A DNA stretch of 38,958 bases from Candidatus Adiutrix sp. Its GTDB lineage: Bacteria > Desulfobacterota > Desulfarculia > Adiutricales > Adiutricaceae. The translations under genes were made by a program, and so were the position numbers. Under the pieces are notes generated by a model. It was not told the DNA's origin and made no database searches. It saw nothing but the letters and a program-made list of their open reading frames with translations. This document shows positions 13,938 through 17,517 of the stretch, one piece after another. Location of the stretch: NCBI GenBank assembly GCA_031261565.1, contig JAISJK010000055.1:1-38958 (forward strand). Reading direction: 5' to 3'. Position 1 is the stretch's first letter. Each line of letters begins with the position of its first letter.

Positions 13938-14714
13938 TTGCTGCCCGCGCCATTGACTCTGGGGCCCCTGAGCCTCAATTTTTACGGCCTCCTGGTCACC
14001 TGCGGAGCGCTGGCCGCCTTGGCCCTGTTTAGTTTCACCGCCCCCAGGCGGGCCATGTCTCCGGCCGCCGCCCGGGATTTCTGTTTCTGGATGATCCTGG
14101 CCGGCCTCCTGGGTTCGCGCCTGTTTTACGTTATTTTTCACTGGCCGGAATTCAGCGGTCACCCTCTGGCTATCCTGGCCTACTGGCGGGGCGGGCTGAT
14201 GTTTCAGGGCGGGGTGCTGACGGCCCTGGCCGTCTCGCCCTTATTTTTAAAGCGCTATGGGCTCAGCTTCTGGCCGGCGGCCGATGTCATGGCCCCGTCC
14301 CTGGCCCTGGGGCAGGCGCTGGGCCGCCTGGGCTGTTTCACCGCCGGCTGCTGCTACGGCCGGCCGGCCGGCCCGGCCAACCCCCTGGGGGTCACCTTTC
14401 CGCCGGGCTCCCTGGCCCCTTTCGGTATCCCCCTGTGGCCGACTCAACTGCTGGAGTCGGCGGGCCTGCTGGCCCTGGCCCTGATTCTGGGTCTGTCTCT
14501 CGGCCGTAGCCAGAGCGCTTTTAGCCGCCCGGGGCGGGTGGCCGCCCTGTATCTGGCCGGGGCGGGGCTCCTGCGTCTGCTGATGGAAAGTCTGCGCGGC
14601 GACTACCGGGGCGACCCGGTCATCTGGCATCTGCCGCCCACCACCCTGGCCGCCGCCCTGGCCGCCATCCTCGGCTTGGGCCTGATTTGGAGCCGCCGGC
14701 CAATAAAAATTTGA
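13938..14714 (+). CDS. lgt: Phosphatidylglycerol:prolipoprotein diacylglyceryl transferase
   Basis: The 258-residue, roughly seven-helix inner-membrane enzyme moves diacylglycerol from phosphatidylglycerol to the lipobox Cys of prolipoproteins. Lgt motifs seen: GPLSLNFYGLL at the start, SRLFYVIFHW, GGLMFQGG (residues 85-92), GQALGRLGCFTAGCCYG, IPLWPTQLLES, and near the end LLRLLMESLRGD with the conserved Arg. The GRLGCF.AGCCYG form is familiar from deltaproteobacterial Lgt. The E. coli catalytic-region His of the FHGG motif is Gln90 here. The start is TTG at 13938, with AAAGGA 7 nt upstream. Together with lspA at 18649 it supplies lipoprotein maturation. Confidence 0.93.
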   Translation: MLPAPLTLGPLSLNFYGLLVTCGALAALALFSFTAPRRAMSPAAARDFCFWMILAGLLGSRLFYVIFHWPEFSGHPLAILAYWRGGLMFQGGVLTALAVSPLFLKRYGLSFWPAADVMAPSLALGQALGRLGCFTAGCCYGRPAGPANPLGVTFPPGSLAPFGIPLWPTQLLESAGLLALALILGLSLGRSQSAFSRPGRVAALYLAGAGLLRLLMESLRGDYRGDPVIWHLPPTTLAAALAAILGLGLIWSRRPIKI

Positions 14715-14791
14715 GATGGTCATTTTTCGCTTGAATTTCTGGCCGCCATAGGGTAAGAAATCTTAATAGTCGAGCAGTAAGGAGGACAACT

Positions 14792-15298
14792 TTGGATTTG
14801 CACGCACTTAGATATTCCGCTGAAAGGCTCTGGGTTCGCCTGGAAGATGACAGCCAGGTGACCATCGGCCTCACTGAGGAAGCCCTGGAAGACTTTGACG
14901 AACTGACCAAAATACGCCTGCCGGCCGAGGGCGATGAGTTTTCCAAAGACGAGCCCTTTGGCCGTCTGTCCGTAGGCAGCGGCACCGGCCTCCGGCTTCT
15001 GGCCCCTCTAAGCGGGGAAGTGGTGGTCATCAATGAGGATATCATCGATGCCCCCGAGGCCATTTTGGAAGACCCCTATGAGGAAGGCTGGCTGATTCGC
15101 CTGGAGCTGGCCTCCATGAGCGAGTTTGACGACCTGATGACCCGCGAGGAATACGATGAGTTTATTGACGATGAATTCGGCGACGATGACCTGGACGACG
15201 AAGACGATGACGAGGAGTATGATGAGGCCTACGATGACGAAGACGATGACGAGGAAGAGGACGAAGACGATCTGTTTTACGACGACGATGAGGAATGA
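14792..15298 (+). CDS. GcvH-like protein lacking the lipoyl lysine, with long acidic tail
   Basis: Residues 7-107 follow the glycine-cleavage H-protein fold: YSAERLWVRLEDDSQVTIGL, ELTKIRLPAEGDEF, APLSGEVVVINEDIID and EDPYEEGWLIRL all match. The lipoylated Lys of the ESVKA motif is missing: the stretch between Phe56 and Ala71 contains no Lys and reads GRLSVGSGTGLRLL. The last ~55 residues are about 70% Asp/Glu. The protein therefore probably cannot carry lipoate as H-protein does; a scaffold, binding or regulatory role is inferred. No gcvT or gcvP is nearby. The TTG start at 14792 has TAAGGAGGA 5-6 nt upstream, a very strong ribosome binding site. The 3' end overlaps a convergent gene by 22 nt. 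Confidence 0.82.
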   Translation: MDLHALRYSAERLWVRLEDDSQVTIGLTEEALEDFDELTKIRLPAEGDEFSKDEPFGRLSVGSGTGLRLLAPLSGEVVVINEDIIDAPEAILEDPYEEGWLIRLELASMSEFDDLMTREEYDEFIDDEFGDDDLDDEDDDEEYDEAYDDEDDDEEEDEDDLFYDDDEE

Positions 15299-16170
15299 CT
15301 GTTGGTCATTTCATCGCCCAGCACGGCTGATTTGGTCTGCTGGTAAGTCACCCCTGTAAAAACCAGGCTGAAAATCACGGCCACGGCCAGATAGAGAGAG
15401 CCGGCCCCAATTAACAGGGCCGGAAAAAAAATGTAGCCGCCTCGGGCCAGGGTGAAGAGGCCCAGGGCCACCATCAGGCCCGGGGGAAGTGTCAGGGCCA
15501 GGGTCAGGAGCAGAGCCGTCAGCCAGCCCCGCCAATGGCGGCGGAGAATCTGAAACGAAGTCGCCAGGGCCAGGGTGGCTGTGGTTTTAGGGTGGTCGGC
15601 CAGGTAAAATATATAGCACTGGCCGAGCAGTTTTAGGAAAATCAGGCCGAACAGCTTCAGGGCCGAACCTAGGGCGGGCATCTGAGCCATGACTGACAGC
15701 ATCAGGTCAACCGCCTGGGAGAGGCCGATCCAGGCCAGGCCGCAGAGCAAGACCCGGGCCGGGCGGGCCCAGGGGGAGAAGATTTCAGCCAGGAGGCGGC
15801 CCGGCTCCCGGCCGGAGACATATTTGACAATGAGGGTATTTAGGCCGGTCTCCAAAAAAAAGGCCAGGAGGGCCAGGAGGAAATAGGTCAATAAAAAGCG
15901 GATGATAAAGTTGCGGTCGAGGGTCAGGCTCAGGGCCCAGGGGTCGGCCGGGTTAAGGGCCACCTGTTCCGCCAGTTGTCGCAAATCCGGCCCCAGGTCT
16001 AAAAATACCGTCAGAAAGAAGCCGGCCAGAGCCAGGATCAGGCCCGTGACCATCAGCGCAACCAAGAGTTTGGCCCAGTCGCTTTTGGTGATGGCCCGGG
16101 TCAGGATAAACTTGTCGCGGAAAGTCATGGCGGCGAAATCGGCGGCGGTCGGAAAATACTCTTCGCTCAT
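15277..16170 (-). CDS. Multi-pass integral membrane protein of unknown function
   Basis: The 297-residue product has about six hydrophobic helices after a ~45-residue cytoplasmic start. These include LLVALMVTGLILALAGFFLT, FLLTYFLLALLAFFLE, LLTLALTLPPGLMVALGLFT and LYLAVAVIFSLVFTGVTY. I do not recognise a named family; the layout is loosely like YIP1/YckC-type membrane proteins. I place the start at ATG 16170 because a near-perfect promoter sits at 16222-16250, inside the longer open frame that reaches 16266. The C-terminal tail is HSSSSS, read antisense to the Asp-rich codons of the convergent acidic-tailed gene. Confidence 0.7.
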   Translation of the reverse strand: MSEEYFPTAADFAAMTFRDKFILTRAITKSDWAKLLVALMVTGLILALAGFFLTVFLDLGPDLRQLAEQVALNPADPWALSLTLDRNFIIRFLLTYFLLALLAFFLETGLNTLIVKYVSGREPGRLLAEIFSPWARPARVLLCGLAWIGLSQAVDLMLSVMAQMPALGSALKLFGLIFLKLLGQCYIFYLADHPKTTATLALATSFQILRRHWRGWLTALLLTLALTLPPGLMVALGLFTLARGGYIFFPALLIGAGSLYLAVAVIFSLVFTGVTYQQTKSAVLGDEMTNSHSSSSS

Positions 16171-16221
16171 GATTTGATAGGCTCTCAGAGGTGGAGACCA
16201 CCGGGCTTTAAGATTGGCCAA

Positions 16222-16250
16222 AGTATAGTCAAGAAGCGGCTGGCTGTCAA
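16222..16250 (-). promoter_or_regulatory. Near-consensus promoter of the 16170 membrane-protein gene
   Basis: On the minus strand a perfect TTGACA (16245-16250), a 17-nt spacer and TATACT (16222-16227) lie about 52 nt before ATG 16170. It decides the start by ruling out the upstream in-frame TTG at 16266. Confidence 0.75.
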
Positions 16251-16290
16251 GCTGGCTCAACGCCAAAACAACGCCAACCAGTCAGCTCTC

Positions 16291-16319
16291 TTTTCAGGGT
16301 CTGCCACTTGTTGTATAAT
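16291..16319 (+). promoter_or_regulatory. Promoter of the aldo/keto reductase gene
   Basis: TTTTCA (16291-16296), a 17-nt spacer and a perfect TATAAT (16314-16319) lie 40 nt before ATG 16360. It is divergent from the promoter at 16222-16250, so the two -35 boxes are 40 bp apart and could share a regulator. Confidence 0.6.
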
Positions 16320-16359
16320 AGCCTCGTTTACTCGAAGACCACATGTGGGAGGCTTGACT

Positions 16360-17517
16360 ATGCTGAAAAAAACTTTTGGGAAAACCGGCCTGGATTTGTC
16401 TATTCTCGGCTTTGGCTGTATGCGTCTGCCGCTGACCAACCCCAGCGACCCCACGGCCATTGACGCTGACCTGGCCACGGCCATGATCCGCAAATCCATT
16501 GACCAGGGCGTCAATTACATTGACACCGCCTGGCCCTACCACGGCGACAGCCGGATTGAGCCTGGACGGAGCGAGCTCCTGGTGGCTCAGGCTTTGAAAG
16601 GCGGCTACCGCGAGAAAGTGCATCTGGCCACCAAACTGCCCACCTGGTTCATTCAGGATCAAAAGCAGATGAATACCGTCCTCGACACCCAGCTTAAAAG
16701 GCTGGAGACGCCTTATATTGATTTTTACCTGGCCCACAACCTCAATGGCATTGTCTGGCCGGGCATCAGAGACAAGGGGCTTTTCCGCTTTCTGGACGAA
16801 GCCCTGAAAGACGGCCGCATTAAACACGCCGGCTTTTCCTTCCACGACCGCTATGAGATTTTTGAAGAGATCATCAAAAGTTATGACTGGAGCTTTGGCC
16901 AGATCCAATACAACTATCTGGATGTGAATTACCAGGCCGGGCAGCGCGGGCTGAAACTGGCCGCCGAACGAGGTCTGGGGACGATCATCATGGAACCCCT
17001 GCGCGGCGGTTTTCTCATCAACCATGTGCCGGAGGAAAGCCAGGCCAATCTGCGGGGCGCCCGGCCCGACTGGTCGCTGGCCACCTGGGCTCTCCGCTGG
17101 CTCTGGAGCCAGCCGGAAGTCAACCTGGTTTTGAGCGGCATGAGCACTATGGCCCAGGTGGAGGAAAATCTGGCCATCGCCTCCCAGCCCTCGGTCTTGA
17201 CCGAGCGGGATCTGGCCGCCCTGGGCCAGGTGGTGGATCTCTTCCGCGAGCGACTCAAAATCAACTGCACCAGTTGCGGCTATTGCCTGCCCTGCCCCCA
17301 GGACGTCAACATCCCCAAAAATTTCTCTTATTATAATGATTATTTCCTGGTTGATTCCGAGGAAGTCCGCAGCCGGGCCAAATTTTACTTCAGCGCCCAG
17401 GTGGCCGAGCACGAAACCTTTGCCCACTGCGTCCATTGCGGGGAATGCGAGGAGAAGTGCCCCCAGAAACTGCCCATCAGCGACCTTATGGACGAGGTGG
17501 CCAAAGTCTTTGGCTGA
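16360..17517 (+). CDS. Aldo/keto reductase with C-terminal 4Fe-4S ferredoxin-like domain
   Basis: The 385-residue protein has an N-terminal AKR barrel: LSILGFGCMRLP, NYIDTAWPYHGDS with the catalytic Asp/Tyr, VHLATKLPTW, LDTQLKRLETPYIDFYLAHN and GFSFHD. A C-terminal domain carries two Cys clusters, CTSCGYCLPC and CVHCGECEEKC, both suited to 4Fe-4S centres. This fused layout is common in anaerobes; substrates are usually unknown. It probably couples NAD(P)H- or ferredoxin-linked reduction in the cytoplasm. ATG at 16360 has GGGAGG 6 nt upstream, and the open frame further up overlaps the promoter and is not coding. Single gene, ending 16 nt from a convergent histidine kinase gene. Confidence 0.92.
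   Translation: MLKKTFGKTGLDLSILGFGCMRLPLTNPSDPTAIDADLATAMIRKSIDQGVNYIDTAWPYHGDSRIEPGRSELLVAQALKGGYREKVHLATKLPTWFIQDQKQMNTVLDTQLKRLETPYIDFYLAHNLNGIVWPGIRDKGLFRFLDEALKDGRIKHAGFSFHDRYEIFEEIIKSYDWSFGQIQYNYLDVNYQAGQRGLKLAAERGLGTIIMEPLRGGFLINHVPEESQANLRGARPDWSLATWALRWLWSQPEVNLVLSGMSTMAQVEENLAIASQPSVLTERDLAALGQVVDLFRERLKINCTSCGYCLPCPQDVNIPKNFSYYNDYFLVDSEEVRSRAKFYFSAQVAEHETFAHCVHCGECEEKCPQKLPISDLMDEVAKVFG

Follow-up and report, generated by a model that had tools for sequence, protein, structure and literature searches.

Lysine-less H-protein-like genes with acidic tails in Candidatus Adiutrix and other Desulfobacterota

A 38,958-nucleotide stretch of DNA from Candidatus Adiutrix sp. (the window) was analysed. 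It encodes, at positions 14792–15298 of the forward strand, a GcvH-like protein of 168 amino acids with a TTG start, recognized by the Pfam family GCV_H and by its AlphaFold2 model, in which the lipoyl lysine is missing and to which an acidic tail has been added. The protein is very probably a repurposed, non-lipoylated H-protein. This reading, already offered in a preliminary description made from the sequence alone, is now well supported, as the fold is kept, both the lipoyl Lys and Glu14 are lost, the gene is under purifying selection and it is retained in genomes without glycine decarboxylase or lipoate-attachment enzymes. The analysis showed that the scaffold is intact and selected and that none of the known routes looked for in its own genome (LipA, LplA/LipB) would let it act as a lipoyl carrier. 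The lysine-less form of GcvH is conserved across at least 12 Desulfobacterota families.

H-protein fold, lipoyl site and acidic tail

The sole Pfam domain in the protein was GCV_H (PF01597; residues 6–127, E=1.5e-27, 96.4 bits against a cut-off of 22.2). The AlphaFold2 model (m7921351cf092), built on an alignment of 20 relatives, had mean pLDDT values per ten residues of 81–96 in the core (residues 1–130) and of 47–57 in the tail. When this model was compared with the PDB using Foldseek, the first 22 matches were all H-proteins, with an rmsd of about 1.0–1.3 Å for most, 1.0–1.2 Å in the case of 3klr, 9c19, 3a8i and 1zko, and a target TM of about 0.9; they included the bovine (3klr), human (9c19/8ugo), E. 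coli (3a8i), T. maritima (1zko) and pea (1htp) proteins, the last match being GcvH-L (5a35). The window protein was about 30–34 % identical to the solved GcvH structures. Since the core of the model was confident and its PDB matches were H-proteins, the fold of residues 1–126 (positions 14792–15169, +) is that of an H-protein, which confirms the clear fold motifs claimed earlier and excludes another fold, the outcome against which the preliminary description had set its reading. The motif EDPYEEGW (residues 93–100, positions 15068–15091, +) was invariant in the 20 aligned members (alignment A1) and showed some variation once sampling was widened. A wrong-frame or non-coding ORF at 14792–15298 was ruled out by the fold, the conservation and dN/dS.

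No NCBIfam family was matched above its cut-off, and no named model specific to the lysine-less form was present in Pfam or NCBIfam. The protein scored 89.3 bits with the GcvH equivalog TIGR00527 (cut-off 115.85), 102.3 bits with a second NCBIfam GcvH model (cut-off 117), 38.9 bits with GcvH_rel_desulf (NF045810; cut-off 150) and 40.4 bits with the chlamydial not_gcvH (TIGR03077; cut-off 144).

The lipoyl hairpin (F56–A71, FGRLSVGSGTGLRLLA; positions 14957–15004, +) was degenerate and did not contain the canonical E-S-V-K-A. In the alignment, the canonical E-S-V-K-A-A-S-D-x-x-A-P stood opposite L-S-V-G-S-G-T-G-L-R-L-L-A-P, so the window hairpin appears to have lost the lysine and to carry two extra residues. 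Direct reading of the translation bore out the earlier observation that no Lys lies between Phe56 and Ala71, K40 and K52 being the only lysines in the whole protein. The residue at the attachment site varied between lineages (G, S, R, H, Q, E, D or N), with G, S, R, H or Q within the host family, E, Q, R or D in the other Desulfobacterota families and D in Bdellovibrionota; such free variation would be expected if constraint had been lost at this single position.

Leu13 (positions 14828–14830, +) was aligned to Glu14 of the pea H-protein (H-E-W motif), a residue that holds the methylamine-loaded lipoamide arm in its cleft. Glu was present at this position in 42 of the 58 rows with a lipoyl motif and in none of the 85 rows without one, all of which had L, M, V, I, A or F. 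This second site thus agrees, independently, with the loss seen in the hairpin. Glu14 was also absent from two Aquificota rows with a lipoyl motif (L104 and L106), which were taken to be LbpA-like, and its loss may therefore mark H-like proteins outside glycine cleavage generally.

Four genera of the Adiutricaceae (g2, g5, g7 and g8) had a Lys at the site or immediately beside it, within a non-canonical E-D/N-K-K-S/T-L-F or E-G-N-K-T-L-F context, together with the same acidic tail and V or I at position 14. No LipA, LplA/LipB or GcvP above cut-off was found in their genomes, and their proteins are read as probably non-lipoylated too. The preliminary description had also set its reading against homologues that share the tail and retain a lipoyl Lys; a Lys is formally present in these four genera, but not in a lipoyl motif and not alongside lipoylation genes. 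The closest Lys-bearing relative (L028/L262, 1519–1959; 49 % identity to the window protein) combined a canonical E-S-N-K-T hairpin with H-I-W and with a tail that is mildly acidic. Its genome carried GcvP and LplA, and it is possibly near the ancestral state.

The tail (residues 127–168, positions 15170–15295, +) was predicted to be disordered, with low pLDDT, and 79 % of its 42 residues were D or E, the remainder including scattered Tyr, Phe and Leu. Over the last 55 residues the D/E content was 71 % (39/55), in line with the earlier estimate of about 70 %. Acidic residues made up at least 60 % of the last 45 in all 30 Adiutricaceae loci compared and about 36 % to 89 % across lineages, the tails being weaker in thermophilic Desulfobacterota (about 16–25/45) and strong in Bdellovibrionota (27–35/45). 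Of the six-frame ORFs in the neighbourhood loci that were 80 aa or longer, 2741 in all, 66 possessed a 40-aa stretch with at least 55 % D/E, and because all 66 belonged to the lysine-less GcvH family the acidity of the tail is not due to chance. No other ORF in the window reached even 50 % D/E over 40 aa.

Conservation and decoupling from glycine cleavage

Orthologues were present in 35 of the 37 genomes of the host family, Candidatus Adiutricaceae, the two exceptions being genomes that were 86 and 78 % complete. At least 11 further Desulfobacterota families possessed lysine-less orthologues; the named relatives were Candidatus Adiutrix and other termite-gut Desulfobacterota. The Lys loss and the tail, whose conservation the preliminary description had proposed to check, were found together in every genome of the host genus and across the family, apart from the four genera with a Lys at or beside the site. 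Within the genus, mean pN in the core was 0.09 compared with a pS of 0.64 (dS saturated near 1.4), a pattern which indicates, at the level of codons, strong purifying selection on the H-protein core; the tail drifted in sequence (pN 0.20) and kept its composition.

A gene tree reconstructed with the trait columns removed did not reject a single lysine-less clade (p-AU 0.325, from 105 columns, which are few), and synteny argues for one origin of the Lys loss within Desulfobacterota. In Bdellovibrionota (the Bdellovibrio loci L066, L069, L072, L073, L081, L086 and L099) a similar lysine-less, acidic-tailed protein was encoded after glnA; its hairpin in Bdellovibrio read E-T-D-D-G-P-L-D-I-Y, and a separate canonical GcvH with GcvP was found beside it in three of the four Bdellovibrio genomes checked.

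The window genome (2.24 Mb, 95 % complete) contained no GcvP (GDC-P), LipA or LplA/LipB above cut-off, and its sole GCV_H gene was the lysine-less gene itself. GcvP was detected in five of the 37 Adiutricaceae genomes (G003, G004, G005, G025 and G036), exactly the five that possess a second, Lys-bearing GcvH, in a cluster that also holds LplA. LipA above cut-off was found in none of the 37 genomes, and the LplA/LipB catalytic domain in eight, in one of which (Candidatus Adiutrix intracellularis) the gene was broken. GcvP and LplA/LipB above cut-off were likewise absent from 19 genomes with the lysine-less gene in nine other Desulfobacterota families, 18 of them at least 93 % complete. The association with loss of GcvP and lipoate attachment is strong, but not absolute, because some of these genes are kept in Desulfobaccaceae (f56), in f15 and in Bdellovibrio.

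Two side observations concern the same genes. The glycine-cleavage cluster of one Adiutricaceae genome (L222, G003:C1:1130289-1142645), like those of the four others, encodes its own LplA with no LipA above cut-off in the genome, which suggests lipoate scavenging in some termite-gut Adiutricaceae. In Candidatus Adiutrix intracellularis, the lplA gene (G001:C84:921-1412) contained four stops and the GNAT and radical SAM genes 3' of the orthologue (L036, 7305–9072) were in pieces; this is erosion in an intracellular symbiont in which the lysine-less gcvH is still intact.

Gene neighbourhood and candidate partners

The gene is preceded by a Shine-Dalgarno sequence, AAGGAGG (positions 14779–14785, +), 6 nt before the TTG start, and most relatives likewise kept AGGAGG upstream of the orthologue, whose start codon was TTG or GTG. 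The strong ribosome binding site from which high expression had been deduced is thus real and recurs, but it says little about the level of expression. Further upstream, TTGAAT (14731–14736) and TAAGAA (14754–14759), 17 nt apart, form a putative promoter (14731–14759, +); in several Adiutricaceae genera the corresponding blocks GCTTGAA and GTAAGAA recurred 5' of the orthologue. The second block deviates from the usual TATAAT, and the pair was not scored by the consensus sigma-70 scan; window scans with consensus sigma-70, Rfam and a tRNA search gave no useful result. On the 3' side, a hydrophobic protein of 329 aa, probably a membrane protein and without any Pfam or NCBIfam match, is encoded on the opposite strand (15277–16266, −). 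This gene and the acidic-tail gene share 22 bases at their 3' ends, and the poly-Ser terminus of the hydrophobic protein (SHSSSSS) is read from the antisense of the Asp/Glu codons of the tail. An aldo/keto reductase with a C-terminal 4Fe-4S dicluster domain is encoded at 16174–17517 (+).

The conserved upstream neighbour is lgt (prolipoprotein diacylglyceryl transferase; positions 13938–14714, +; Pfam LGT, 1.1e-50), which was followed by the lysine-less gene in the Adiutrix genus, in families f22, f15 and f10 and in L048. In f15 and f10 the order was ileS-lspA-lgt-lysine-less gcvH, and in f22 this was extended by fabD and the three subunits of a 2-oxoacid:ferredoxin oxidoreductase. As f22 carries both junctions, it links the Adiutrix gene and those of the thermophiles as orthologues. 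The gene was followed by fabD and the oxidoreductase in f33, and lay between moaA and fabD, often touching or overlapping the latter, in f70, f83, f66, f53 and f95. In all, fabD was found directly 3' of the lysine-less gene in seven families, with a spacing of −3 to +4 nt in several. In the other Adiutricaceae, fabD-aconitase-isocitrate dehydrogenase-cobS was divergent from it. ResB-CcsA followed the gene in f12 and in f56 (Desulfobaccaceae), where an indolepyruvate-type oxidoreductase was divergent from it, and in Bdellovibrio the gene came after glnA and was itself often followed by an EamA transporter. The neighbouring FabD passed or came near the FabD equivalog cut-off and was the sole full-strength FabD in most Adiutricaceae genomes; its identification as a special FabD-like enzyme was dropped, as it is the housekeeping FabD. 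Assignment of the other shared neighbour as a 2-oxoglutarate oxidoreductase was also dropped, the NCBIfam assignments being VorB-type in f33 and indolepyruvate-type in Desulfobaccaceae.

The preliminary description had suggested a metal- or protein-binding scaffold. Judged by its gene context, the protein is more likely to bind another protein (FabD, perhaps 2-oxoacid:ferredoxin oxidoreductases) than a metal. We tentatively propose that the non-lipoylated H-protein paralogue serves as a housekeeping, non-catalytic, protein-binding adaptor, with FabD (malonyl-CoA:ACP transacylase) as its likeliest partner because fabD directly follows, and often touches, the lysine-less gene in seven families. 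The barrel would keep only its ability to dock onto a partner, and the flexible acidic tail might strengthen or tune docking by charge, or add solubility; by gene order, 2-oxoacid:ferredoxin oxidoreductases would be the next candidates after FabD. Against FabD, the gene adjoins lgt rather than fabD in the Adiutrix genus and has neither neighbour in f12 and f56; every one of the shared neighbours is a housekeeping gene, so the linkage could reflect slow decay of gene order without a functional tie, and tail acidity varies widely between lineages.

An adaptor whose partner is encoded elsewhere, for example a GcvT-fold enzyme or another former partner of the H-protein, is possible, though we consider it rather doubtful. 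The gene neighbours differ between families, and the docking surface for the P-, T- and L-proteins, including EDPYEEGW, may be partly kept; GcvP, however, is absent from most carriers of the gene. It is also unlikely that the tail is the working part, as a metal (e.g. calcium) buffer or as a nucleic-acid mimic or chaperone tail, with the barrel as only a stable mount. Its composition is kept despite sequence drift, aromatic and acidic residues alternate in it, and the most acidic tails occur in both Adiutricaceae and Bdellovibrionota, but the best conserved part of the protein is the barrel, including the EDPYEEGW motif, and the gene is kept in f33, f70, f12 and f15 in spite of a much weaker tail.

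Less probable still is an adaptor or extra subunit of 2-oxoacid:ferredoxin oxidoreductases, in which the tail would mimic an acidic, ferredoxin-type docking surface and FabD would be merely a neighbour. In both f33 and f22 a Vor/Kor-type enzyme of three subunits is encoded downstream, in f56 an indolepyruvate-type enzyme is divergent from the gene and beside it, and aconitase and isocitrate dehydrogenase are nearby in most other Adiutricaceae. The enzymes belong to different families, however (VorB-like in f33, IOR in f56), and none is found beside the gene in f70, f83, f66, f53, f95, f12 or the Adiutrix genus.

That the protein still carries a lipoyl (or other thiol or acyl) group, attached elsewhere or by novel machinery, is very improbable: the Lys of g2, g5, g7 and g8 and the existence of L028/L262, a close relative that bears the Lys and is hydrophobic at residue 14, would fit such a carrier, but only K40 and K52 are left in the window protein, the site residue is free to vary, Glu14 is lost and the enzymes concerned were not found above cut-off in its genome. 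That the gene is a GcvH relic, now decaying in a symbiont after the loss of glycine cleavage, is hardly credible, since, despite the loss of the lipoate pathway that the broken lplA of Candidatus Adiutrix intracellularis reveals in the genus, the frame is open in 35 of the 37 family genomes and in free-living thermophiles with near-complete genomes, dN is low against a saturated dS, and a separate canonical GcvH coexists in five family genomes.

Relation to known systems

In comparison with GcvH (PF01597, TIGR00527), the window protein is alike in fold, core length and the PYxxGW region, and differs in lacking the lipoyl Lys and Glu14, in its 40-residue acidic tail and in coming from a genome without GcvP. 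GcvH-L of Staphylococcus and Streptococcus is lipoylated and encoded in a sirtuin/macrodomain operon; it too is a GcvH paralogue outside glycine cleavage and a structural match (PDB 5a35), though a more distant one (24 % identity). GcvH_rel_desulf and not_gcvH are likewise related to GcvH and outside the standard system, and the window protein falls far below their cut-offs. The LbpA proteins are lipoate-binding, GcvH-like proteins of the sHdr system that act as lipoate carriers in sulfur oxidation, and their lipoate Lys is strictly conserved (PMC6067878). They also function outside glycine cleavage, and the presumed LbpA-like rows share the loss of Glu14, but the window protein is without the lipoate Lys and no Hdr-like or sHdr genes were annotated among the neighbours in the loci examined.

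Plant BADC proteins, which are paralogues of BCCP (the biotin carrier) without the biotinylation motif, are regarded either as a non-catalytic 'glue' or as an inhibitor of acetyl-CoA carboxylase (PMC11926652). By analogy, a swinging-arm carrier paralogue without its attachment motif or cofactor lysine could assemble or tune an enzyme, non-catalytically and with no carriage of substrate, in what is here proposed to be fatty-acid synthesis. BCCP is not of the GcvH lineage, and the partner of BADC is acetyl-CoA carboxylase, not FabD, so the likeness would be convergent. The bolder suggestion, that a Lys-stripped lipoyl carrier has become a stoichiometric subunit for the assembly or control of FabD, and thus a GcvH-derived counterpart of BADC, in a hitherto unnamed housekeeping family of bacteria that Desulfobacterota and perhaps also Bdellovibrionota use, is speculative and at present improbable.

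GcvH-like proteins outside glycine cleavage (LbpA, GcvH-L, not_gcvH) and carriers without the cofactor lysine (BADC) were thus already known; no description of the lysine-less GcvH family was found in the open-licence literature searched. Such genomes would wrongly be credited with glycine cleavage or the reductive glycine pathway if the gene were labelled automatically as 'glycine cleavage H-protein'. Cultivable carriers of the gene are available in Thermodesulfatator and Bdellovibrio. The H-protein is usually viewed as a scaffold for the lipoate arm, and here the scaffold survives without the arm; its retention, mostly in genomes that have neither glycine cleavage nor lipoate attachment, implies a selectable function of the H-protein fold that is independent of lipoate.
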